Assembly (NCBI RefSeq): GCF_017301635.1
Contig: NZ_CP071091.1
Coordinates: 9,106,501-9,170,500 of the forward strand
Origin: Myxococcus landrumus
GTDB taxonomy: Bacteria; Myxococcota; Myxococcia; Myxococcales; Myxococcaceae
DNA length: 64,000 nucleotides
Direction: 5' to 3'
The notes below the pieces were generated by a model. It saw only the letters and a list, made by a program, of their open reading frames with translations, was not told where the DNA came from and made no database searches. Position numbers and translations under genes: made by a program. This document shows, one piece after another, positions 36,059 to 45,542 of this stretch; the stretch's first letter is position 1, and every line of letters starts with the position of its first letter.

Positions 36059-36385
36059 TCAGGGCAGGCGCGGGTGGAGGAAGCGCGCCAGGGCGATGAG
36101 GTCGTCCCAGTCGAGCGCGCCAAACTCCAGCGCCACGCCGTCTGCTTCGCGGCGGCGGATGGTGCAGGTGGTGACGATTTCGCGGTCCCCGGGCAGAGGC
36201 AGGCCCAGGGTGAGGTACCGCTGGCTGTCGCCGGGGTGGGCGAGCAGGAAGAGGCCCGCCATGGAGACATCCCGGGCCTGAACCATGACGTCGCGTCCAG
36301 GCAGGATGACCTTCACGGGGAAGTTCGCCTCGACGCGCGGATGGAAGCGTTCGGCGATGTGGGGGCCACCAGGGGAAGGCTGCAT
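36059..36385 (-). CDS. PilZ-domain protein (c-di-GMP binding)
   Basis: A 108-residue stand-alone PilZ domain. The RxxxR motif (Arg13-FHP-Arg17) and the D/NxSxxG motif (ARDVSMAGLFLL) are both present, so c-di-GMP binding is expected. It lies immediately upstream of, and divergent from, the type III secretion genes and could link second-messenger level to that system (inference). Confidence 0.82.
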   Translation of the reverse strand: MQPSPGGPHIAERFHPRVEANFPVKVILPGRDVMVQARDVSMAGLFLLAHPGDSQRYLTLGLPLPGDREIVTTCTIRRREADGVALEFGALDWDDLIALARFLHPRLP

Positions 36386-36562
36386 CGGCTCGGCTCCTCT
36401 TCTTCGTGCGACAGGGTGCGACAACTCTGAGGCACTTGGCGTGTGAGGCAAGTTTCCGTCCGCCAGGGCTTCCGTCCCGCCGTCCGGACGAGCCTCCCAG
36501 TCACGGGAGCCCGGAGCGGGGGCCCGGGGTGGCCATGCGTGCGGGATTGCTCGGATTTCGTC

Positions 36563-36578
36563 TGGCACGTCCGCTGAA
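36563..36578 (+). promoter_or_regulatory. Candidate sigma-54 promoter of the type III secretion operon
   Basis: TGGCACG at 36563-36569, TCCG, CTGAA. The -24 block is perfect and the -12 block is partial (its GC is GA), with correct spacing. It would start transcription about 25 bases before the first gene at 36615. This is weaker evidence than the site at 15752. Confidence 0.35.
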
Positions 36579-36614
36579 AACGCCTGCTGGAAACCGCATT
36601 GCCGGAGACCCGCC

Positions 36615-37103
36615 ATGGAGCCGAATCAACGCAGGCAGTACTTGCTCACCACGACCCTCAACGTGCCTCGGCAGACGCCGTACAACGACTTCGGCACGAC
36701 GCTGGCGCATGCGGCCAACACGGTGGTCAGCAAGGGCGCGGGCCTGGTGGGGGGAATGATTCCGTCCCCTCCCGTGCTGAGCGCGGCGGTCTCCAGCATG
36801 AAGTTGGCGGTGTCCACGGTGGCGTCCAAGGGGACGCCGGCCACGTCGTCTTCGGCCGCGTCGTCGTCGGCCGCCACGGCGTCGGGAGCGGGCACGGCCC
36901 AGGGCACTTCGTCGGGCAGCCAGGATGGATGGGACCTGTTGGAGGCGCAGCGGGCGCTCAGCGCGGATGGGCAGAAGTTCAACGCCGCCTATCTCCAACT
37001 GCAGAACGAGATGCAGCGAGAGAGCCGCGAGCACAACGCGGTCTCGAACATCATGAAGGTCCGTCACGACTCGGCGAAGGCCGCCATCAACAACATCCGT
37101 TGA
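36615..37103 (+). CDS. Type III secretion protein, candidate needle (SctF-like)
   Basis: A 162-residue protein with no signal peptide, first in the secretion operon. The N-terminal 60 residues are followed by a Ser/Ala/Thr-rich linker (about 75-100) and a helical C-terminus. The last 22 residues (NAVSNIMKV, then D, then AAINNIR) align without gaps to the C-terminus of Salmonella needle protein PrgI as I remember it, with about half the positions identical. The next two genes are SctI and SctJ, the same order as prgI-prgJ-prgK. SctF proteins are usually about 80 residues, so the long N-terminus is odd. It could instead be another early substrate. Confidence 0.45.
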   Translation: MEPNQRRQYLLTTTLNVPRQTPYNDFGTTLAHAANTVVSKGAGLVGGMIPSPPVLSAAVSSMKLAVSTVASKGTPATSSSAASSSAATASGAGTAQGTSSGSQDGWDLLEAQRALSADGQKFNAAYLQLQNEMQRESREHNAVSNIMKVRHDSAKAAINNIR

Positions 37104-37118
37104 GAGGCGCGGTGAGCC

Positions 37119-37601
37119 ATGAGCGTGGACAAGGTGGGAGCGGTCGGGGGCGCGGGCCTGGTGTCCGTGGAGTCCGGCGGGGGGCGGTTCGACAAGGTGC
37201 TGGAAGGAGTCCGGGGCCCTCCGAGAGAGGGCTCGGTGCCAGCGGCGATGGAAGGCTCGAAGTGCTCTGGCGTCGAGGCCACTCGCGGCGTCGCGAGAGT
37301 CGAGAGCGGGGGGACACAGGCTTCAGCGGGGGCGGTCGAGGCGAGGACGCACGGGCGGGTGGATTCGGTGCAGTCGGCGCGCGAGCAGCAGGCGGCGCAG
37401 GTCTTGGATCGCGTGGGGCAGGCGCAGAAGCGGTTGGACAGCATCCTGGCGATGGCGGAATCGGGCCGCGATTTCTCGGCCGCGGAGCTGCTCGCGTTGC
37501 AGGCGCAGGTCTACCGCGCGAGCCAGGAGCTCGACCTGGCCGGCAAGGTCGTCGAGAAGGCGACCGGTGGTGTGAAGCAGGTTCTCCAGACGCAGGTTTG
37601 A
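37119..37601 (+). CDS. sctI: Type III secretion inner rod protein SctI-like
   Basis: A 160-residue protein whose C-terminal 60 residues match the YscI/PrgJ inner rod pattern: LDSILAMAESGRDFSAAELLALQAQVYRASQELDLAGKVVEKATGGVKQ. The N-terminal half is Gly/Ser-rich and probably disordered until assembly. Inner rod proteins connect the export gate to the needle. It lies 15 bp after the needle-like gene and 11 bp before sctJ. Confidence 0.7.
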   Translation: MSVDKVGAVGGAGLVSVESGGGRFDKVLEGVRGPPREGSVPAAMEGSKCSGVEATRGVARVESGGTQASAGAVEARTHGRVDSVQSAREQQAAQVLDRVGQAQKRLDSILAMAESGRDFSAAELLALQAQVYRASQELDLAGKVVEKATGGVKQVLQTQV

Positions 37602-37612
37602 GGAGTGCACGG

Positions 37613-38419
37613 ATGTCACTGACTCCCCGGCATGCCCTGCTCGTCCTGTTGCTCCTGGGGACGGCGGCGTGCAGAGAGCGTATTCAGCATGGGTTGGACG
37701 AGCGCCAGGCCAATGAGCTGCAGTCGGTGCTCATTGAGCGAGGGCTGGATGCTCGCAAGGTCCCGGAGGCGGGCAAGAAGCCGTCGTGGGCCATCGAAGT
37801 CTCCGGAGAACAGTCCTCGGACGCGGTGAGAGTCCTCGCGGAGCTGGGCTTGCCGAGGCCCGCGATGGAGGTGGGCTGTGACGTATTGGGAGGGGGCGGT
37901 GGGTTGGTGCGCACGCCGATGGAGGAGTCGGTCTGCCGGGTGCGGGTGCTCGAGAGGGGCTTGGAGAAGACGCTCCAGTCGATGGAGGGGGTGCTGCTGG
38001 CGCGCGTGCACCTGGTGATTCCACCTCCGCCGCGTCCGGGGCAGAGCCTGGGGGCGGCGAAGGCGTCGGCGCTGCTTCGAGTCATGCCTGGCAATGCGGC
38101 CCGGGTGCGTCAGTCCTCGGACGTGATGAAGGCATTGCTGGCGGGCGGCGTGGAAGGACTCTCGGCCGAGTCTGTGTCGCTGTGGGTGGATGAGGTGCCC
38201 ACGCGCGCCCTGGTGTCCTCGGGAGGCGGGTCGTCCTCGCTCACGAGGCTGAGGTGGCTGCTCGTGATGCTGGGCGTGTTGGTGACGGGACTGTCGTGGG
38301 CCTTGGTGTGGGTGACGTTGCGGATGCGTCACTTCCGCGACCTGCGTGTGACTCCGCCCGCGCCTCCGGTGCCAGCGCGTCCGGTGGTCTCGCCTGGGGC
38401 CGCTCGCAAGGTGGCCTGA
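37613..38419 (+). CDS. sctJ: Type III secretion inner-membrane ring lipoprotein SctJ
   Basis: A 268-residue member of the YscJ/PrgK/FliF family forming the inner ring of the basal body. It has a lipoprotein signal with lipobox LLGTAAC, the ring-building domains (LDERQANELQSVLIERGLDARKV; VCRVRVLERGLEKTLQSMEGVLLARVHLVIP), and a C-terminal membrane helix (LRWLLVMLGVLVTGLSWALV). The length is normal. AGGAG sits seven bases ahead. The FliF/SctD outer part of the ring is not encoded here. Confidence 0.88.
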   Translation: MSLTPRHALLVLLLLGTAACRERIQHGLDERQANELQSVLIERGLDARKVPEAGKKPSWAIEVSGEQSSDAVRVLAELGLPRPAMEVGCDVLGGGGGLVRTPMEESVCRVRVLERGLEKTLQSMEGVLLARVHLVIPPPPRPGQSLGAAKASALLRVMPGNAARVRQSSDVMKALLAGGVEGLSAESVSLWVDEVPTRALVSSGGGSSSLTRLRWLLVMLGVLVTGLSWALVWVTLRMRHFRDLRVTPPAPPVPARPVVSPGAARKVA

Positions 38420-38436
38420 GGCCCGCGGAGATGCTC

Positions 38437-38925
38437 ATGATGCAACAAGCGACACGCGTGGGCCGCGCCTTGCGCTCACCGAAGAAGGACGCGCGAGCCC
38501 TGGCGCGAGCACCTCGATTGGAGCAGGCGACGGTGATTCGTCCACGTCCGCCGGCGCTCCCCTTGGACCGTTGTGCGCTCGTGACGTGGATTCTCGCGCG
38601 CGAGCGGGCCGAAGAACTCCTCGAAGGCTTGGGGACCGTGGCCATGAAGCGGGCGAAGGCTCATTTGCGACACATCGTCATGCTGCCTTCGCCCCGGCGG
38701 CAGGCGAAGGTGGCCACGGAGTTCGGAGAGCGAGCTGACGCGGGAGCGCGGCTCAAGGACTTGATGGCCGAGGTTCCGGAGGCGCTGCGCAAGGAGATCT
38801 TCCGGAACCTGCCTCCCTACCACCGGTCCTTGTTTCCTGGACGGAGGGTGGAGCCCTCGGACCCCTTGGCGCCGCCGCTGCTGTCGGCGCTGGCCGCGCG
38901 GCTTGTTCGGGAAGCCACTCGCTGA
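38437..38925 (+). CDS. Type III secretion locus protein of unknown family (SctK position)
   Basis: A basic 162-residue protein between sctJ and sctQ. It is mostly helical (ALVTWILARERAEELLEGLG; AVAMKRAKAHLRHIVMLP-type region; AGARLKDLMAEVPEALRKEIFRNLPPY). In other injectisomes this position is held by SctK or SctL, sorting-platform parts, but I cannot see a specific motif of either. GGAG six bases before ATG 38437 favours that start over 38431. A role is inferred from position only. Confidence 0.55.
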   Translation: MMQQATRVGRALRSPKKDARALARAPRLEQATVIRPRPPALPLDRCALVTWILARERAEELLEGLGTVAMKRAKAHLRHIVMLPSPRRQAKVATEFGERADAGARLKDLMAEVPEALRKEIFRNLPPYHRSLFPGRRVEPSDPLAPPLLSALAARLVREATR

Positions 38926-39075: not shown

Positions 39076-40221
39076 ATGAATCAAGACACCGAACCTTCGA
39101 CTTTTCGTGTGCCAGACCGGCTGCGCCGACTGGGGACCCGACGGATGAGCCGGGCGCACCTCGCGCTCTCGGAGCGGCCTCGTGTGGCGGCCTTGGGACG
39201 GGAGGCCCTCTCGGAAGTCTGTTCCGCGCTGAGCCGTGAGCTGGGGTGTCCCGTGAAGGCGGAGGCCCGGCTGCTGGAGGCGGTGGTTCCAGCCGCGCGA
39301 GGGCCGACGCGGCCGGCGGTCTTCGTCCTGCTGGAGCTGTCCGCGGTGGGGAGTGTGGCGGTGTTGGAGCTGGAGCCCGTGCTGGCTGTCTCGGCGCTGG
39401 AGCGCATCGCGGGCTCGGCCGGGAAGCCTGGGGTGGTGACGGAGCTGGCTCGGCTGGAGGAGGCCACGCTGGCGTACCTGCTGTTGGTGGCGCTCTCGGC
39501 GGTGCGTGCCCGGTCGGAGCTCTACCCCGCGCTGGCGCCTCGGCTGTCGGCGGTGACGATGCGCGGAGAGGAAGTCCTGGCCCGGCTGCGCGAGCAGCAG
39601 CCGTGGGTCGGCGTGGAGTTGGATTTGACGGTGGGGAGTGTGCGTGGGGGCGGGCGGCTGTTGCTTCCGGGGCCGGTGCTTCAGTTGGCGTTGCAGGGGT
39701 TTCCGGTGGAGCGGCGCATGGAGGCCTCGCCGGAGGTGCTCGCGGCATCGCTCAAGTTGCGATGCCTCCTGGGCCAGACGCCGCTGTCCGCCGAGGCGGT
39801 GGATGCGCTGACGGTGGGGGATGTCGTCGTCTTCGAGGGGGTTCGCCGCGAGGGTGCGCGCCTGCTGGGAGACGGAAGGCTGGTGGCCCGTGGCTTCACG
39901 CTCATCGGAGCGTTCCAGCCCGAGGGTTTTTCGCTGACCCGCGCGCACGTCCGCGCGCGATTCCAGGAGTCGAACATGTCGATGGTGAATGAACGCGGCG
40001 AGGTCATTCCTCCGCTTCCGGTGGACGTGGAGGTGGAGCTGACGCGGGTGCTGGTTCCGCTCTCGGAGTTGGCGGCGTTGAAGCCGGGCGCCCTCCTCCC
40101 TCTGCACATCAATGCGAGTGAGCCCGTGTTGTTGCGAGTGGGGGACCGGGTGGTGGCGCGAGCCGAGCTGGTGGACCTCGAGGGCGAGGTGGGTGCCCGT
40201 GTCCTGGCCTTGCTGCCATGA
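39076..40221 (+). CDS. sctQ: Type III secretion C-ring protein SctQ (SpoA domain)
   Basis: A 381-residue cytoplasmic C-ring/sorting-platform protein. The C-terminal SpoA (FliN-type) domain is clear at about residues 312-380: VDVEVELTRVLVPLSELAALKPGALLPL, then EPVLLRVGDRVVARAELVDLEG. A second, weaker SpoA-like segment lies around 190-280. The N-terminal half is the variable region of SctQ/FliM-type proteins. The stop overlaps the next ATG by 4 bp. Confidence 0.82.
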   Translation: MNQDTEPSTFRVPDRLRRLGTRRMSRAHLALSERPRVAALGREALSEVCSALSRELGCPVKAEARLLEAVVPAARGPTRPAVFVLLELSAVGSVAVLELEPVLAVSALERIAGSAGKPGVVTELARLEEATLAYLLLVALSAVRARSELYPALAPRLSAVTMRGEEVLARLREQQPWVGVELDLTVGSVRGGGRLLLPGPVLQLALQGFPVERRMEASPEVLAASLKLRCLLGQTPLSAEAVDALTVGDVVVFEGVRREGARLLGDGRLVARGFTLIGAFQPEGFSLTRAHVRARFQESNMSMVNERGEVIPPLPVDVEVELTRVLVPLSELAALKPGALLPLHINASEPVLLRVGDRVVARAELVDLEGEVGARVLALLP

Positions 40222-40646
40222 GTGAGCTCATGCGGAGCCGCCGGCCTTCGTTTTCGCCTCGTGCGCGGCTTCAGGTCGCGACGTTGCTCGTGTTGGGCCT
40301 GGCTTTGTTGGGACCCGTGGGGGGCGTGTCCATGGTGGCCACGGCGCGATGGCTCCTGGTGGTGGGAGCGCTCTGCGGGCTGGGGTGGTGGTGGTTTCGA
40401 CGAGGCGCCACGACGCCTCGGGAGGTACGGGCCGAGCGGATGCGGGTCATCTCGCGCGAGGGGCTCTCGCCTCGCTGTGGCATCGCGCTGGTGGAGGTCG
40501 AGGGGCGAGGGTTCCTGGTGGCGTTCGGGGATGCGTTCGCGGAGGTGCATCCCCTTCAAGAGTCGGCGGAGGTCTTCACGAGGCCGCTGGCCCAGGCGCG
40601 CCGGCCGCGTCCTGGCAGGGTTTCGCGGAAGGGGGCGCGGTCATGA
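40218..40646 (+). CDS. FliO-like membrane protein in the type III secretion operon
   Basis: A 142-residue protein with two hydrophobic segments (residues 19-35 and 42-58) and then a small soluble domain: RMRVISREGLSPRCGIALVEVEGRGFLVAFGDAFAEVHPL. That block has the FliO pattern (basic strand, then a LVEV-GR-LLVG core). It immediately precedes sctR, the FliP homologue, as fliO precedes fliP in flagellar operons. FliO assists FliP assembly in flagella and is usually absent from injectisomes. Both ends overlap their neighbours (ATGA). Confidence 0.6.
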   Translation: MSELMRSRRPSFSPRARLQVATLLVLGLALLGPVGGVSMVATARWLLVVGALCGLGWWWFRRGATTPREVRAERMRVISREGLSPRCGIALVEVEGRGFLVAFGDAFAEVHPLQESAEVFTRPLAQARRPRPGRVSRKGARS

Positions 40647-41359
40647 GTGGGGGGATGACCTGGCCCTTGGCGGCGGTGGCGTTGGAGGGGGCGCTTGGCC
40701 AGCAGTCCTACGCGGGAAGTCCGCTGGCGATGATGGGGATGCTGGCGTTGATGTCCCTGCTGCCATTCGCGGTGTTGATGTTGACGAGCTTCTCGAAGAT
40801 CGCCGTGGTGTTGTCATTGGCGCGCTCGGCGATGGGCACGCAGCAGGCTCCGCCCACGCTGGTGTTGACGGGGCTGGCGGCGGTGCTGACGGGGCACATC
40901 ATGGCGTCGGTGATGGAGCGGATGTACGACGCGGGGCAGCTTGCGTATCAGGAGCTGGAGACTGGGTCCGGTACGAAGATCCTCGAGTCCGCGGCGAAAG
41001 TGGCCGAGCCCTTGAGGAGCTTCCTGGTGAAGCACGGCAGCCCCGAGGAAAGGGCTCGTTTCGTGGACCTGGCGCGTGAGCTTCGGCCGCCAGAAGAAGC
41101 GGACACGGTGAGCGAGACGGACCTGTTCGTGGTCATTCCCGCGTTTGTCATCACCGAGCTGAAGGAGGCCTTTCAGATTGGCTTTCTCGTCTTCCTGCCG
41201 TTCCTGGTGCTCGACATGGTCATCGCCAATGTGTTGCTGGCGTTGGGCATGCAGACATTGTCGCCGAGTCAGGTGAGTCTACCTTTCAAGATACTTCTCT
41301 TCGTGGCGGTGGATGGCTGGTCGTTGCTCGCGCGAGGCCTCATCCTGGGGTACCGGTGA
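40643..41359 (+). CDS. sctR: Type III secretion export gate protein SctR
   Basis: A 238-residue homologue of FliP/SpaP, part of the R5S4T1 export gate. Family motifs are clear: LMSLLPFAVLMLTSFSKIAVVLSLARSAMGTQQAPP near the start, and VIPAFVITELKEAFQIGFLVFLPFLVLDMVIANVLLALGM in the second half. There are four membrane helices. It has no cleavable signal, unlike FliP. The ATG overlaps the FliO-like stop. Confidence 0.95.
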   Translation: MSGGMTWPLAAVALEGALGQQSYAGSPLAMMGMLALMSLLPFAVLMLTSFSKIAVVLSLARSAMGTQQAPPTLVLTGLAAVLTGHIMASVMERMYDAGQLAYQELETGSGTKILESAAKVAEPLRSFLVKHGSPEERARFVDLARELRPPEEADTVSETDLFVVIPAFVITELKEAFQIGFLVFLPFLVLDMVIANVLLALGMQTLSPSQVSLPFKILLFVAVDGWSLLARGLILGYR

Positions 41360-41363
41360 CGTG

Positions 41364-41633
41364 ATGACACAGGATGTATTGCTGACGCTGGGGCGTGAGG
41401 CCTTGTTGTTGATGGTCCTGGCATCCTTGCCTCCTATTGGTGCGAGCCTGCTGGTGGGGTTCCTGTCGAGCCTGTTCCAGGCGACGACCCAGCTTCAGGA
41501 GAGCACGTTGTCGGTGGTGCCGAAGCTGTGCGCGACGGTGGTGGCGTTGGTCCTGGCAGGCCCATGGATTGCCGCGCAGCTCATGCGTTTCACGCATCAG
41601 CTCCTGTTGCTCATCTCAGAGGTGTCGGCGTGA
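41364..41633 (+). CDS. sctS: Type III secretion export gate protein SctS
   Basis: An 89-residue two-helix protein, homologue of FliQ/SpaQ. The conserved core is LLLMVLASLPPIGASLLVGFLSSLFQATTQLQESTLSVVPKL. Four copies wrap around SctR in the gate. An in-frame GTG one codon upstream is a less likely start. The stop overlaps sctT (GTGA). Confidence 0.95.
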   Translation: MTQDVLLTLGREALLLMVLASLPPIGASLLVGFLSSLFQATTQLQESTLSVVPKLCATVVALVLAGPWIAAQLMRFTHQLLLLISEVSA

Positions 41634-42424
41634 ACCTGGAGCTGATTCGTTCACAACTGGAGGCGTTGGGGCCGGATGCCCTCGCGGTGGCGCTGTGCTC
41701 CGCGCGGCTCTTGCCCGTGGCCTTCCTGTGCCCGCTCCTGGGAGGACAGGCGACGCCGGTGACGGTGCGTCTGGGGTTGGTGCTGGCGTTGTCGCTGTTC
41801 CTGCGGGTGGAGGGAGGGATTGGGTTGGCCATACCCGTGACATCGGCGCTGGCCTTTGGGGGATGGGTGCTGCGGGAGATGCTCTACGGTGTCTCCGTGG
41901 GGCTGGTCGCGGCCTTGCCGTTCGATGCGGCGCGAATGGGAGGCCGGTTCATCGACCTCCTGCGAGGAACGTCTGCGGAGGCGAGTCTGCCATTGGCGGG
42001 GAGCCGGGAGTCAGCCACGGGCGAGGGGCTCTATCACCTGCTGGTCGGGCTCGCGATGACGGGGGCGGTGGCGCCGTGGGTTCTCGGGTCGCTGATACGC
42101 GGGTTCGCCGTGGTGGGGTTGGGGGCCTTCGTGCCATCGGAGGCGGCGGCGATGCATGTCGTCACGCTCGCGGGAGGCGCACTGGCCACGGGATTGGCGG
42201 TGGGCGCGCCGATGGCGGCCGCGATGTTGACGGTGGACTGCTTTCTGGCGTTGGCCTCACGCGCGGCGCCGCAGATGAACTTGCAGGAGTTGGGGGCACC
42301 CTTGCGAATCCTGGGCGGCGGGGTGGTGCTGTGGCTGGGGATTGGCTTGCTCTGTGAGCGATTGCTGGCGGGAGTGCTGGCGACGGACGGCGCACTTTCC
42401 ATGTTGGGGACGCTGGGCCGATGA
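41630..42424 (+). CDS. sctT: Type III secretion export gate protein SctT
   Basis: A 264-residue homologue of FliR/SpaR with six to seven membrane helices. Conserved features include LCSARLLPVAFLCPLLGGQATPVTVRLGLVLALSL and the GRFIDLLRGTSAE-type loop. The GTG start overlaps sctS by 4 bp and the stop overlaps sctU by 4 bp. Confidence 0.92.
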   Translation: MNLELIRSQLEALGPDALAVALCSARLLPVAFLCPLLGGQATPVTVRLGLVLALSLFLRVEGGIGLAIPVTSALAFGGWVLREMLYGVSVGLVAALPFDAARMGGRFIDLLRGTSAEASLPLAGSRESATGEGLYHLLVGLAMTGAVAPWVLGSLIRGFAVVGLGAFVPSEAAAMHVVTLAGGALATGLAVGAPMAAAMLTVDCFLALASRAAPQMNLQELGAPLRILGGGVVLWLGIGLLCERLLAGVLATDGALSMLGTLGR

Positions 42425-43470
42425 GCGGCGAGAAGACGGAACAGCCCTCCGCGAAGAGGCTGCGTGAGGCACGTCGCAAGGGGCAGATTCCTCGCAGCCG
42501 GTTGCTCTCTTCATGTGCGGCGACGCTGGGAGGACTGCTGGGGTTCGCCTGGGGCTTCTCTGGGATGTGGGAACGGCTTCACGAGTGGACGGCTCGGCTG
42601 TTCCTGGAGCAGCGGCTCGAGGGGGCCTTGGAAGAAGGACTGGGGATTCTCGTGCGGATGAGCACGCCGGTGTTGGGGGGCGCGTTCGTCGCGTCAATCG
42701 TGGTCTCCCTGGCCACGGTGGGTTTCGAGATGAACCCGGGGCACCTCGCGCCGAAGTGGGAGCGCGTCAGCATGGCCTCTGGCTTCAAGCGCATCTTCAG
42801 CACGAAGCCCTGGTGGGAACTGGTCAAGGCGCTGGTCGCGGTGACGGTGGTGGGGATGTTCGTGTGGCGTGAGGTGGAGGAGCTGGGCGCGGATGCCCTT
42901 CGCACGGCCTTGCTCGCGGAGGACACGGGGCTCTGGTTCCTGCTGGAGCGATTGGGGGCGCTGGTCTACCGGGCGGCGTGGGTGCTGTTGGTGCTGGGCG
43001 TGGGGGACTACGTGCTCGCCAGACGCAGCCACCTGCGCGAGCTGATGATGAGTCGCGAGGAGCTGAAGCGCGAGTACAAGGAGAGTGAGGGCGACCCTCG
43101 TCACAAGGGCCAGCGCAAGGCCATGCATCGGCAGCTCGCGCTGGGCGGCCCGGCACGTGGGGTGCAGAGGGCCACGGCCGTGGTCGTGAATCCCACGCAT
43201 CTGGCGGTGGCCCTTCGTTACGACGTGGGGGAGTGCGAGGCGCCTTATCTCGTCGCGAAGGCGCGAGAAGAGGACGCACTGTGGCTGCGTGAAGAGGCGC
43301 GGCGGCTCGGCATCCCGGTGGTCCGGGATGTCCCGTTGGCGCGAAGCCTCATCCACTACGACGTCGGGGAGCCCATCCCCGAGGAATTGTACGAGGCCGC
43401 GGCGGTGGTCCTTCGCACGGCGATGGATGAGCGGGACGTCGGGGATTCTCTCCGGAGACAGACATCATGA
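42421..43470 (+). CDS. sctU: Type III secretion autoprotease/substrate switch protein SctU
   Basis: A 349-residue homologue of FlhB/YscU. The N-terminus has the family signature SGEKTEQPSAKRLREARRKGQIPRS, four membrane helices follow, then the cytoplasmic domain with the autocleavage motif NPTH (Asn257; VVVNPTHLAVALRYD). The motif is intact, so self-cleavage and substrate switching should occur. That matters because a switch implies that early substrates such as rod or needle proteins exist. Confidence 0.95.
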   Translation: MSGEKTEQPSAKRLREARRKGQIPRSRLLSSCAATLGGLLGFAWGFSGMWERLHEWTARLFLEQRLEGALEEGLGILVRMSTPVLGGAFVASIVVSLATVGFEMNPGHLAPKWERVSMASGFKRIFSTKPWWELVKALVAVTVVGMFVWREVEELGADALRTALLAEDTGLWFLLERLGALVYRAAWVLLVLGVGDYVLARRSHLRELMMSREELKREYKESEGDPRHKGQRKAMHRQLALGGPARGVQRATAVVVNPTHLAVALRYDVGECEAPYLVAKAREEDALWLREEARRLGIPVVRDVPLARSLIHYDVGEPIPEELYEAAAVVLRTAMDERDVGDSLRRQTS

Positions 43471-45542
43471 AGATGCTGATGGAGTGGTGGTCGAAGGTCC
43501 GCAGTTCGTCCGACCTCGTGCTGGCGGTGGCGGTGGCGGCGGTGCTGGGGGCGCTCATCATCCCGCTGCCGTCCTGGCTGCTGGACGTGGGTCTTGCGGT
43601 GAACCTGGCGGCGGCGGTCGCGCTGCTGGTGGCCGCGCTGCGAGCGAAGGATGCGTTGAAGGTGACGTCATTTCCTTCGTTGTTGCTGTTCACCACGTTG
43701 TTCAGGCTCGCGCTCAATGTGTCCTCCACGCGGCTGGCGCTCGCGGAGGGACACGCGGGCGAGGTCATCCAGGCGTTCGGCGAGTTCGTCGTCCAGGGCG
43801 ACTACGTGGTGGGCGGGGTGGTGTTCGCCATCCTTTCGTTGGTGCAGTTCCTGGTGGTCGCCAAGGGCGCCGAGCGTGTCGCGGAGGTGTCCGCCCGCTT
43901 CACGTTGGACGCGATGCCGGGAAAGCAGATGTCCATCGATGCGGACCTGCGGGCGGGGGCCATCGACCAGGTGCAGGCCCGGAAGCGGCGGAGGGACCTG
44001 GAGCGCGAGTCGCAGATGTTTGGTGCGATGGACGGCGCGATGAAGTTCGTGAAGGGCGACGTCATCGCGGGACTGGTCATTGTCGCGGTGAACCTGCTGG
44101 GGGGCTCGCTCATCGGTGTGTTGCAGGGGGGGATGTCGCTCTCGGAAGCCGCATCGACGTTCGCGCTCATCGCGATTGGCGATGGCCTCGTGTCGCAGGT
44201 CCCGTCGTTGTGCATCACCGTGGCCGCCGGACTGGTCGTCACGCGTGTGGCCTCCGAGCGGGAAGAGGACTCCCTGGGGTCGGAGATTGGCTCGCAGTTC
44301 TTTGGTGACGCGCGGACGCTCTATGTCGTCGCGGGATTGTGTGTCGCGCTGGCGCTGATGCCGGGCATGCCGCACATGACCTTCCTCCTGTTGGCGGCGG
44401 GGCTGGTGGGCTTGGGGCGAGTCCTGCAACGAGGGACTTCCCGCGAGCAGCCGGTGCGCGAGGGAGGCGCCTCCTCGGGCGAGAAGGCAGGAGCAGCGGC
44501 CAAGGAGGGCGCACCTCCAGAAAGCGTGGCGGTGCCCGTGGGGGTGTCGCCCCTCACGTTGGACCTTGCGCCGGACCTGACGGCGTTGGCGCAGGCGTCG
44601 GCGGGGGCGTTCGTGCACAAGACGCTGAACGCCGTGCGAGATGAGCTGTTCTTCGAGCTGGGGGTGCGCATCCCCGGTATTCGCGTGCGGACCCAGGCTG
44701 CGTACCTTGCCTCCGGGGAGTACCGCATCCTGGTGGATGAGGTTCCGGCGGGTGAGGGACAGCTCACGTCAGGTGCGCTCTATGCGATGGCGCCTCCCGA
44801 CGAGCTGGCATTCCTCCCGGTGAAGGCCGAGCCCGCGGTGGAGCCCTGGACGAGAAGGACCATCAGTCGCATCCCCGAGGCGGGCCGAGGGCCGGTGGAG
44901 CTCGCGCAGGTCCAGGTCCTGGGTCCCGAGGAACTGCTCGCAGAGCACTTGCGATGGGTACTCCGTGCCCGGGCCGCGGACCTGCTGGGGCTCCAGGATG
45001 TGCAGTCATTGCTGGATGGCTTGGCGCCACGCGCACCCATGCTGGTGAAGGAGGCGCTGCAGAAGGTGCCGCTGCCGCTGCTGACGGACGTGCTCCGGAA
45101 GCTGTTGCAGGAAGGCGTCAGCATCCGGGACCTGCGAGCCATCCTGGAGGCGCTCGTGGCTCCGTCCACCGAGGGCGACGCCACGGCGCTCGCCGAGCGT
45201 TGCCGTCAGGCGCTTCGCCGCTACCTGAGCCACAAGTTCGCGCCCACCGGGCCCCTGTATGCGTACCTCGTGGACCCGGAGGTCGAGGAGATCCTCCGGT
45301 CCACGGGGCCTCGAGGGCCCGCGCCAGACCCGGAGCGGGTGGCGGAAATCCTAGAGGGTGTCCGACAGGTGGCCACAGGGGGGAAGGCCGTTCTGCTCAC
45401 CGCCCCCGATGTCCGCCGGTCGCTGCGCAGACTCTGCGAGGGGGCTTTTCCGGAAGTGGCCGTGCTCACCTATGGGGAGCTGGACGGCGCCCTCCAGATT
45501 CGTCCCATCGGCCGGCTGTCGCCTGTTCCGACGGGAGCCTGA
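43467..45542 (+). CDS. sctV: Type III secretion export apparatus protein SctV
   Basis: A 691-residue homologue of FlhA/InvA. The N-terminal 330 residues hold about eight helices, with conserved blocks LPSWLLDVGLAVNLAAAVALLV, FPSLLLFTTLFRLALNVSSTRLAL and the FHIPEP-related cytoplasmic loop (VSARFTLDAMPGKQMSIDADLRAGAI). The C-terminal nonameric ring domain is complete. The length is normal. It is the last gene of the operon and converges with the HU-like gene, 6 bp between stops. Confidence 0.95.
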   Translation: MKMLMEWWSKVRSSSDLVLAVAVAAVLGALIIPLPSWLLDVGLAVNLAAAVALLVAALRAKDALKVTSFPSLLLFTTLFRLALNVSSTRLALAEGHAGEVIQAFGEFVVQGDYVVGGVVFAILSLVQFLVVAKGAERVAEVSARFTLDAMPGKQMSIDADLRAGAIDQVQARKRRRDLERESQMFGAMDGAMKFVKGDVIAGLVIVAVNLLGGSLIGVLQGGMSLSEAASTFALIAIGDGLVSQVPSLCITVAAGLVVTRVASEREEDSLGSEIGSQFFGDARTLYVVAGLCVALALMPGMPHMTFLLLAAGLVGLGRVLQRGTSREQPVREGGASSGEKAGAAAKEGAPPESVAVPVGVSPLTLDLAPDLTALAQASAGAFVHKTLNAVRDELFFELGVRIPGIRVRTQAAYLASGEYRILVDEVPAGEGQLTSGALYAMAPPDELAFLPVKAEPAVEPWTRRTISRIPEAGRGPVELAQVQVLGPEELLAEHLRWVLRARAADLLGLQDVQSLLDGLAPRAPMLVKEALQKVPLPLLTDVLRKLLQEGVSIRDLRAILEALVAPSTEGDATALAERCRQALRRYLSHKFAPTGPLYAYLVDPEVEEILRSTGPRGPAPDPERVAEILEGVRQVATGGKAVLLTAPDVRRSLRRLCEGAFPEVAVLTYGELDGALQIRPIGRLSPVPTGA

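Follow-up and report, generated by a model that had tools for sequence, protein, structure and literature searches.

The analysed stretch of DNA (the window, 64,000 nucleotides) comes from Myxococcus landrumus, whose genome (G000 in our comparisons) is a single contig of 10.37 Mb, and it carries a type III secretion system (T3SS) operon. The first gene of this operon, at 36615..37103 (+), starts with ATG, stops with TGA and encodes a 162-residue protein (P0001), as the preliminary description of the sequence had stated. The SctI inner rod gene (160 aa; 37119..37601, +) starts 15 bases behind the P0001 stop codon and was recognized by PF17001 with E 2.5e-4 and 21.9 bits, under the cut-off of 32.4. 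It is followed by the gene for the SctJ inner ring lipoprotein (37613..38419, +, ATG at 37613), for which matches were computed on the longer frame 36599-38419 and which matched YscJ_FliF (PF01514) over the cut-off (E 2.2e-15) and the NCBIfam model TIGR02544 under its cut-off (E 1.4e-32). The rod and ring genes that had been proposed to follow P0001 were therefore both present. Further downstream lie a gene for a 164-aa protein without a Pfam match at E <= 0.1 (38431..38925, +), the SctQ cytoplasmic ring gene (39076..40221, +; FliMN_C 9.1e-20, TIGR02551 3.9e-28, the latter just under cut-off) and a gene for a FliO-like protein (40218..40646, +; PF04347 5.5e-6, TIGR03500 6.2e-7). FliO has already been published for both M. 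xanthus systems, as excerpts of PMC12248157 state. The open reading frames listed for SctR (40349..41359, +), SctS (41313..41633, +) and SctT (41528..42424, +) come next, with family matches covering residues 124-336 of SctR and beginning at about residue 18 of SctS and residue 52 of SctT; the true start of SctR probably lies further inside its listed frame. SctU (42421..43470, +; TIGR01404 5.8e-83) and SctV (43467..45542, +; TIGR01399 5.7e-200) complete the series. A PilZ-domain gene (36059..36616, -; PF07238 4.4e-8) diverges from P0001, and a response regulator gene lies upstream beyond it.

Near 3.26-3.29 Mb the same genome carries another T3SS locus, which is longer. Judged by gene content, the window locus looks like the 'short' and the other like the 'long' Myxo T3SS in the excerpts of Abby and Rocha (PMC3459982), where an ATPase is counted among the genes common to both. 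Neither a search of the genome with SctN of the long locus nor the window scans revealed an ATPase gene in the short locus. The SctN query gave five matches at E <= 1e-10, which were SctN itself, an ATP synthase subunit recognized by its C-terminal domain, Rho (encoded in the window) and two others, one of which resembles ATP synthase alpha as judged from its sequence. The search thus found just one clear SctN gene, in the long locus, suggesting that the short system may borrow an ATPase or do without one. The Pfam and NCBIfam scans detected no secretin among the window genes they covered.

P0001 relatives are widespread and keep their gene neighbourhood. Using P0001 as query, a match at E <= 0.01 was obtained in 95 of the 96 genomes searched in its family, with matches to the long-locus paralog included in this count. 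A collection scan yielded at least 66 loci, among them loci of Myxococcus xanthus AM003, Corallococcus, Archangium and Anaeromyxobacter and one from a candidate division CSSED10-310 genome. Where more than 900 bases of downstream sequence were available, SctI followed the P0001 ortholog in 62 of 63 loci, and where there were more than 2,000, SctJ did so in 59 of 60 (the exception being L147), placing the gene, as in the window, beside SctI and SctJ in a T3SS operon. SctI was 0.4-1.9 kb from the ortholog and not adjacent to it in L160, L169 and L170. One record with a Myxococcus-type short T3SS locus (L121, BNCN01000001.1) is titled Comamonas sp. KCTC 72670 and is probably a mislabelled genome.

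Architecture of P0001 and its C-terminal helix

Conservation along P0001 was assessed in an alignment of the window sequence and 50 of 58 full-length homologs (A5), from which eight of the 66 loci had been left out beforehand, and structure was predicted using AlphaFold. Residues 1-22 (36615..36680, +) are rich in Ser, Thr, Asn, Gln and Pro and predicted to be disordered, with pLDDT below 50 over most of the segment; inspection of these residues gave no Sec signal, and they may act as a T3 export signal. Residues 26-69 (36690..36821, +) hold an FG...L motif, whose F26 and G27 were invariant in all 51 aligned sequences, together with a hydrophobic Gly/Ala-rich stretch, and were modelled as two short low-confidence helices (26-43 and 57-69). 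The 19-residue hydropathy maximum was 1.26 in P0001 and at least 1.6 in 22 of the 51 sequences. A variable linker rich in Ser, Ala, Thr and Gly (residues 71-102; 36825..36920, +) was the least conserved part, with a mean top-residue frequency of 0.29 and pLDDT mostly below 50. It leads into a needle-type C-terminal segment (residues 103-162; 36921..37100, +), to which the matches to PF09392 and HrpF map. Here AlphaFold predicted a single helix of 59 residues (103-161) with ten-residue pLDDT means of 73 to 95. Residues 129-162 were the most conserved part of the protein (mean top-residue frequency 0.81), and N145, K148, I158 and N160 were invariant in the 51 sequences.

Outside the C-terminal helix the model was mostly of low confidence (pTM 0.29), and no PDB structure matched it (Foldseek; VIA-align). 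The C-terminal helical hairpin anticipated in the preliminary description was not borne out: P0001 was predicted with one helix, whereas the neighbouring SctI, modelled by the same method, folded as a hairpin (H80-114/H121-158). With 162 residues and one helix it also departs from the helix-turn-helix hairpin of about 80 residues that typifies SctF. The predicted model looks like the C-terminal helix of a needle subunit that a flexible linker connects with an N-terminal region of another kind.

The C-terminus was compared with the needle subunit MxiH (2mme), using the MxiH letters as printed by the PDB search. A gapless, roughly half-identical alignment of the last 22 residues had been proposed for PrgI, and it was found for MxiH, the reference tested here in place of PrgI and its close relative (E 4.9e-26), with 11 of 22 residues identical. 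The shared positions include N-A-x-S-N-x-x-K-V-x-x-D and the C-terminal I-x-N-x-R, so that the SctF motif SN..K....D....I.N.R is present in the C-terminal helix of P0001. The observed score was reached in 2 of 200,000 shuffles for the 22 residues and in 1 of 200,000 for the last 39. Over these 39 residues P0001 ranked first (score 43, the second scoring 5) among the 661 stop-to-stop window frames of at least 50 aa. In a further set of 556 frames, taken from three stretches elsewhere in the genome, the highest scores belonged to the long-locus paralog of P0001 (24) and to a 71-aa protein described below (22), followed by a protein without known family (14) and by SctI of the long locus (7). The protein ranked third by its C-terminal 39 residues is conserved, about 160 aa long and not clearly assigned to any Pfam family, and it occurs in or near T3SS loci (L035:14456-14935, -; L245:4343-4840, -; L039:2503-2991, -).

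Family profiles placed the same helix with needle proteins. When P0001 was scanned against 24,736 Pfam models, the T3SS needle family PF09392 came first (E 0.039), aligning residues 107-161 with positions 18-71 of 71, and HrpF was the only other match listed at E <= 10. PF09392 scored 14.6 bits over the full length and 17.3 bits for the C-terminal 62 residues, under the cut-off of 29.4. Filing P0001 as SctI was rejected because the Pfam scan gave no PF17001 match and the similarity to the rod profile was low (below), and filing it as a NolX-type protein was rejected because no NolX/HrpK1 domain was listed at E <= 10. The weak matches to the plant-associated HrpF (PF06266) and HrpA pilins (NF053530, PF09589) fall in the C-terminal 30-95 residues of P0001; HrpA, too, is a longer filament subunit than SctF. 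NCBIfam was not decisive, with a weak match to MreC (0.0067) ahead of the HrpA pilin (0.044). Among 22 hand-picked short-family C-termini (A2, drawn from 43 distinct ones), 19 matched HrpF and 11 matched PF09392 at E <= 1, and other families were matched once each. Of 14 hand-picked long-locus paralog C-termini (A3, from 21 distinct ones), ten matched PF09392, with a best E value of 9.1e-4, and any other family was matched by at most two. The bit scores displayed for these sets stayed under the curated cut-off.

The signal of PF09392 in single sequences is weak. At E <= 1 PF09392 gave four matches in the window genome, each within a T3SS locus and one to the long-locus SctI, which the profile touched about as weakly as P0001 (E 0.225 and 0.228), and stray matches at this threshold also occurred in 3 of 14 control genomes. 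At E <= 0.001 the window genome had none and 13 of 195 Myxococcota genomes had one, two of these over the cut-off. When PDB chains served as the canonical needle references, the long-paralog profile ranked the T3SS needle chain 7y6c_F first among 177,635 PDB sequences (E 0.021); the matched stretch of this chain itself matches PF09392 at 1.5e-15. A mixed profile (A7) of eight A2 sequences, six A3 sequences and six further C-termini from the loci again placed 7y6c_F first (E 0.06). No needle was among the ten PDB matches of the single P0001 sequence at E <= 10 or the three of the A2 profile at E >= 2. The best PDB match of P0001 alone was a repeat protein (4.9e-4), which we judged to be due to chance.

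The long locus and a family of small needle-sized proteins

The long locus of the window genome encodes a P0001 paralog and, at C1:3268892-3269107 (L035:12892-13107, -), a needle-sized protein of 71 aa whose sequence reads as helix, PP turn, helix. As a small needle is also present there, a P0001-type protein cannot be the sole needle-family protein of the long locus. Gene content suggests that the 'needleless' T3SS* studied in M. xanthus predation (mxan_2434-2464) corresponds to this long locus. The T3SS* is the same kind of system, of a locus type that includes the P0001 paralog, whereas the window carries the other, short locus. The long locus also encodes a FliK/SctP-like protein (L036:530-1423, -), whose PF02120 match (E 8.1e-7, 29.2 bits) fell just under the cut-off of 29.8. 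Proteins of the FliK/SctP type determine hook or needle length, and its occurrence would fit with the presence of a needle.

The 71-aa frame was first noticed through PF09392, and its relatives were gathered by similarity to this frame and with an iterated profile. The resulting profile (A6) comprises 18 of 30 distinct small sequences of 71-76 aa and contains no P0001-type sequence; further members occur in loci L201-L215. As a single query the 71-aa protein matched at E <= 0.01 in 40 of 92 family genomes, not all of the matched frames being needle-sized. Several genomes carry tandem copies of the small gene, seven of them within C1:9322999-9328204 of G002. In four genomes (G000, G002, G003 and G028) roughly 15-21 kb at most separate the small genes from the long-locus paralog, and some genomes (e.g. 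G003 and G036) have copies elsewhere too. Against the PDB, A6 retrieved the needle chain 7y6c_F as best match (E 6.3e-5) and MxiH as third (E 0.43, gapless over 70 positions). Eight of the 18 members matched PF09392 (best 4.9e-5), and unrelated families were matched by up to three (best 0.0071). The small family is a better candidate than P0001 for a canonical needle. A diverged needle-sized gene for a 74-aa protein without a Pfam match (L245, G078 C126, 2293-2517, +; A6 E 3.6e-7) adjoins a gene for a 403-aa DUF1521 protein (862-2073, -; E 1.5e-14), DUF1521 being a domain of self-cleaving T3SS effectors in rhizobia. Judged by its match to the named locus L112, G078 may be M. xanthus.

A6 connected the small proteins to P0001. 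Over the whole window genome it found four places at E <= 1. The 71-aa gene came first (1.6e-30), followed by a protein at 8.947 Mb with 9.1e-5, P0001 with 3.6e-4 and the long-locus paralog with 1.7e-3. When the window and the 66 loci were searched together (8,376 frames), it selected 67 frames at the same threshold, one per locus and each the P0001 ortholog, with a median E value of 5.7e-6 and a worst of 0.1. A6 detected a separate small needle gene neither in the window nor in any of the 66 loci, which extend at most 6 kb to each side and often end at contig ends. In two genomes with one P0001-type match each, A6 at E <= 1 found that gene alone (G052, 93% complete) or that gene and one 768-aa frame (G001, 99% complete). 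In the converse search, run on five genomes, A7 recovered small needles in three (G002 4.6e-6, G003 5.4e-5, G000 0.015).

In one hhalign profile-profile comparison the P0001 families matched A6 with a probability of 98.0% (E 2.1e-13). The control comparison, with a SctI profile made from the window and 36 of 54 SctI frames (A8), gave 2.7% (E 0.017), arguing against similarity to the rod. As SctI is a helical protein from the same loci, general helicity does not explain the match to A6. We did not lean on a comparison of A2 with another profile, A4, because A4 had been picked by PF09392 and the comparison is partly circular. The profile match to SctF or SctI foreseen in the preliminary description was thus obtained for SctF through intermediates, not directly with P0001 or A2 in the PDB, and not for SctI. 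Through these intermediates, the sequence comparisons support homology of P0001 with T3SS needle proteins via its C-terminal module.

Possible roles of P0001 in the short system

Like SctF (PF09392: MxiH, PrgI, SsaG, YscF), P0001 has a C-terminal helix whose SN..K....D....I.N.R pattern extends to the C-terminus, a gene position beside SctI and SctJ and, by inspection, no Sec signal. It differs in its long N-terminal region and linker, and we did not file it as a canonical SctF on account of its length, the missing hairpin and a Pfam score under the cut-off. With the small family it has the C-terminal module in common but not the helix-PP-helix layout, the needle length or the tandem copies seen in several genomes. 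SctI is likewise helical, presumably exported and its operon neighbour, but shows no clear profile similarity. We therefore read P0001 as a putative exported needle-family protein with an N-terminal region of its own, which would serve as a shaft subunit of the short T3SS or as a tip or adaptor protein.

The explanation we favour, at a probability of about 55%, is that the short T3SS exports P0001, which carries the lumen-side helix of SctF at its C-terminus and would function like a needle subunit. The disordered N-terminus would lead the protein into the SctRSTUV export gate, after which P0001 would stack on the SctI rod by its C-terminal helix and build the shaft of the short system. The N-terminus of SctF faces outward in the needle; the N-terminal region of P0001 would point outward in the proposed shaft. 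The gene position, the conserved tail and the failure to detect any other needle gene in the 66 loci make a shaft protein the most likely role. Counting against this role, no secretin that would provide a route through the outer membrane was seen among the scanned window genes. We know of no report of a filament from such a system.

The main rival, a serious one that we nevertheless consider unlikely, is that P0001 is a tip, adaptor or translocator-like protein, which would dock on the end of the rod or needle via the needle-type helix while its hydrophobic, Gly/Ala-rich N-terminal region meets the outer membrane or that of the prey; another subunit would make up the bulk of the needle, if there is one. 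It is the main rival because the P0001 paralog and the small needle-sized protein occur together in the long locus, and because a NolX/HrpK1-like protein of the same genome has a needle-type tail. The single predicted helix of P0001 and other Myxococcota proteins that place such a tail behind long, varied N-terminal regions also agree with it. However, no small needle gene was detected nearby in the 66 loci, the hydropathy maximum of P0001 is just 1.26, and the NolX-like protein matches the P0001-type profile weakly (E 0.73). P0001 also precedes SctI, like prgI, which lies before the rod gene.

That P0001 is a second rod subunit, staying periplasmic in a short rod of a system truly without an external needle, appears improbable. 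Its gene adjoins SctI, no secretin was seen among the scanned window genes, and excerpts of PMC3459982 argue that a secretin might be dispensable for the periplasmic assembly of needle-like material, but the Pfam matches of P0001 are to needle families and not to the rod family, and the 2.7% obtained with SctI falls short of clear profile similarity. Convergence of two amphipathic helices, with P0001 an unrelated T3SS-associated protein such as a secreted effector, is very improbable: the helix is short, single-sequence scores are weak and PF09392 strays in control genomes, but the helical SctI control failed to match, PF09392 and A6 matches in the window genome are confined to the two T3SS loci and the NolX-like protein, and P0001 or its ortholog was the single pick in all 67 loci and ranked first among the window frames against MxiH.

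These results bear on the description of myxobacterial systems as needleless, which the preliminary description had correctly stated. Excerpts of Abby and Rocha (PMC3459982) place the loss of SctF in the Myxo branch at the injectisome root and hold that the protein would have been findable if present, and excerpts of PMC10433427, PMC10849154 and PMC12075869 state that needle, secretin and translocon are all missing. Passages of PMC12075869 propose Tad pilus tips as possible stand-ins for the missing needle complex in contact killing by M. xanthus, and a T3SS of Bradymonabacteria has also been termed 'needle-less' (excerpts of PMC11509652). No title or abstract among the literature matches listed reports a myxobacterial needle or NolX/HrpK-type protein. 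As P0001 and relatives elsewhere in the genome end in a needle-type helix, a needle may have been overlooked, and from the sequences the label 'needleless' looks wrong. The suggestion of an overlooked, diverged needle subunit held up as to the needle-family C-terminal module; P0001 is not a canonical SctF, for which the small family is the better candidate. That no needle exists is a premise of current models of contact killing by M. xanthus. If both loci carry needle-family genes, the Tad-substitute proposal and the SctF-loss scheme need revision, and specific genes become open to deletion, tagging and tomography.

A wider and more tentative possibility, somewhat doubtful in our view, is that the 'needleless' T3SSs of myxobacteria are full injectors with a new layout. 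This would comprise small needle subunits (in tandem arrays in several genomes) and a NolX/HrpK-like translocator that ends in a needle-type tail. Both loci would in addition supply a long protein with the needle module, its hydrophobic N-terminal region taking over the functions of secretin or translocon. If this were true, a whole set of exported proteins would use the C-terminal helix of SctF as a general module for docking, and bacterial prey would be the target of needle injection.

The NolX/HrpK1-like protein, of about 506 aa when counted from an internal Met, is encoded at C1:8945799-8947424 (L243:5799-7424, +). It matched NolX over the cut-off as a whole protein (E 1.1e-6, 28.6 bits) but fell short of that cut-off when the genome was scanned (23.9 bits), showed similarity to T3SS_HrpK1 (2e-4) and ends in the needle-type tail found with A6 at 8.947 Mb, making it a candidate translocator. 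It is followed by a TPR protein, possibly its chaperone. In 29 of the 92 family genomes PF05819 matched at E <= 0.01, and in six the match exceeded the cut-off. Needle-type tails were also seen behind quite different N-terminal regions in other Myxococcota proteins (frames of 141 to 818 aa, loci L085-L103). One genome (G053) had five such tail matches at E <= 0.001, four of them with a near-identical tail and differing N-terminal regions.
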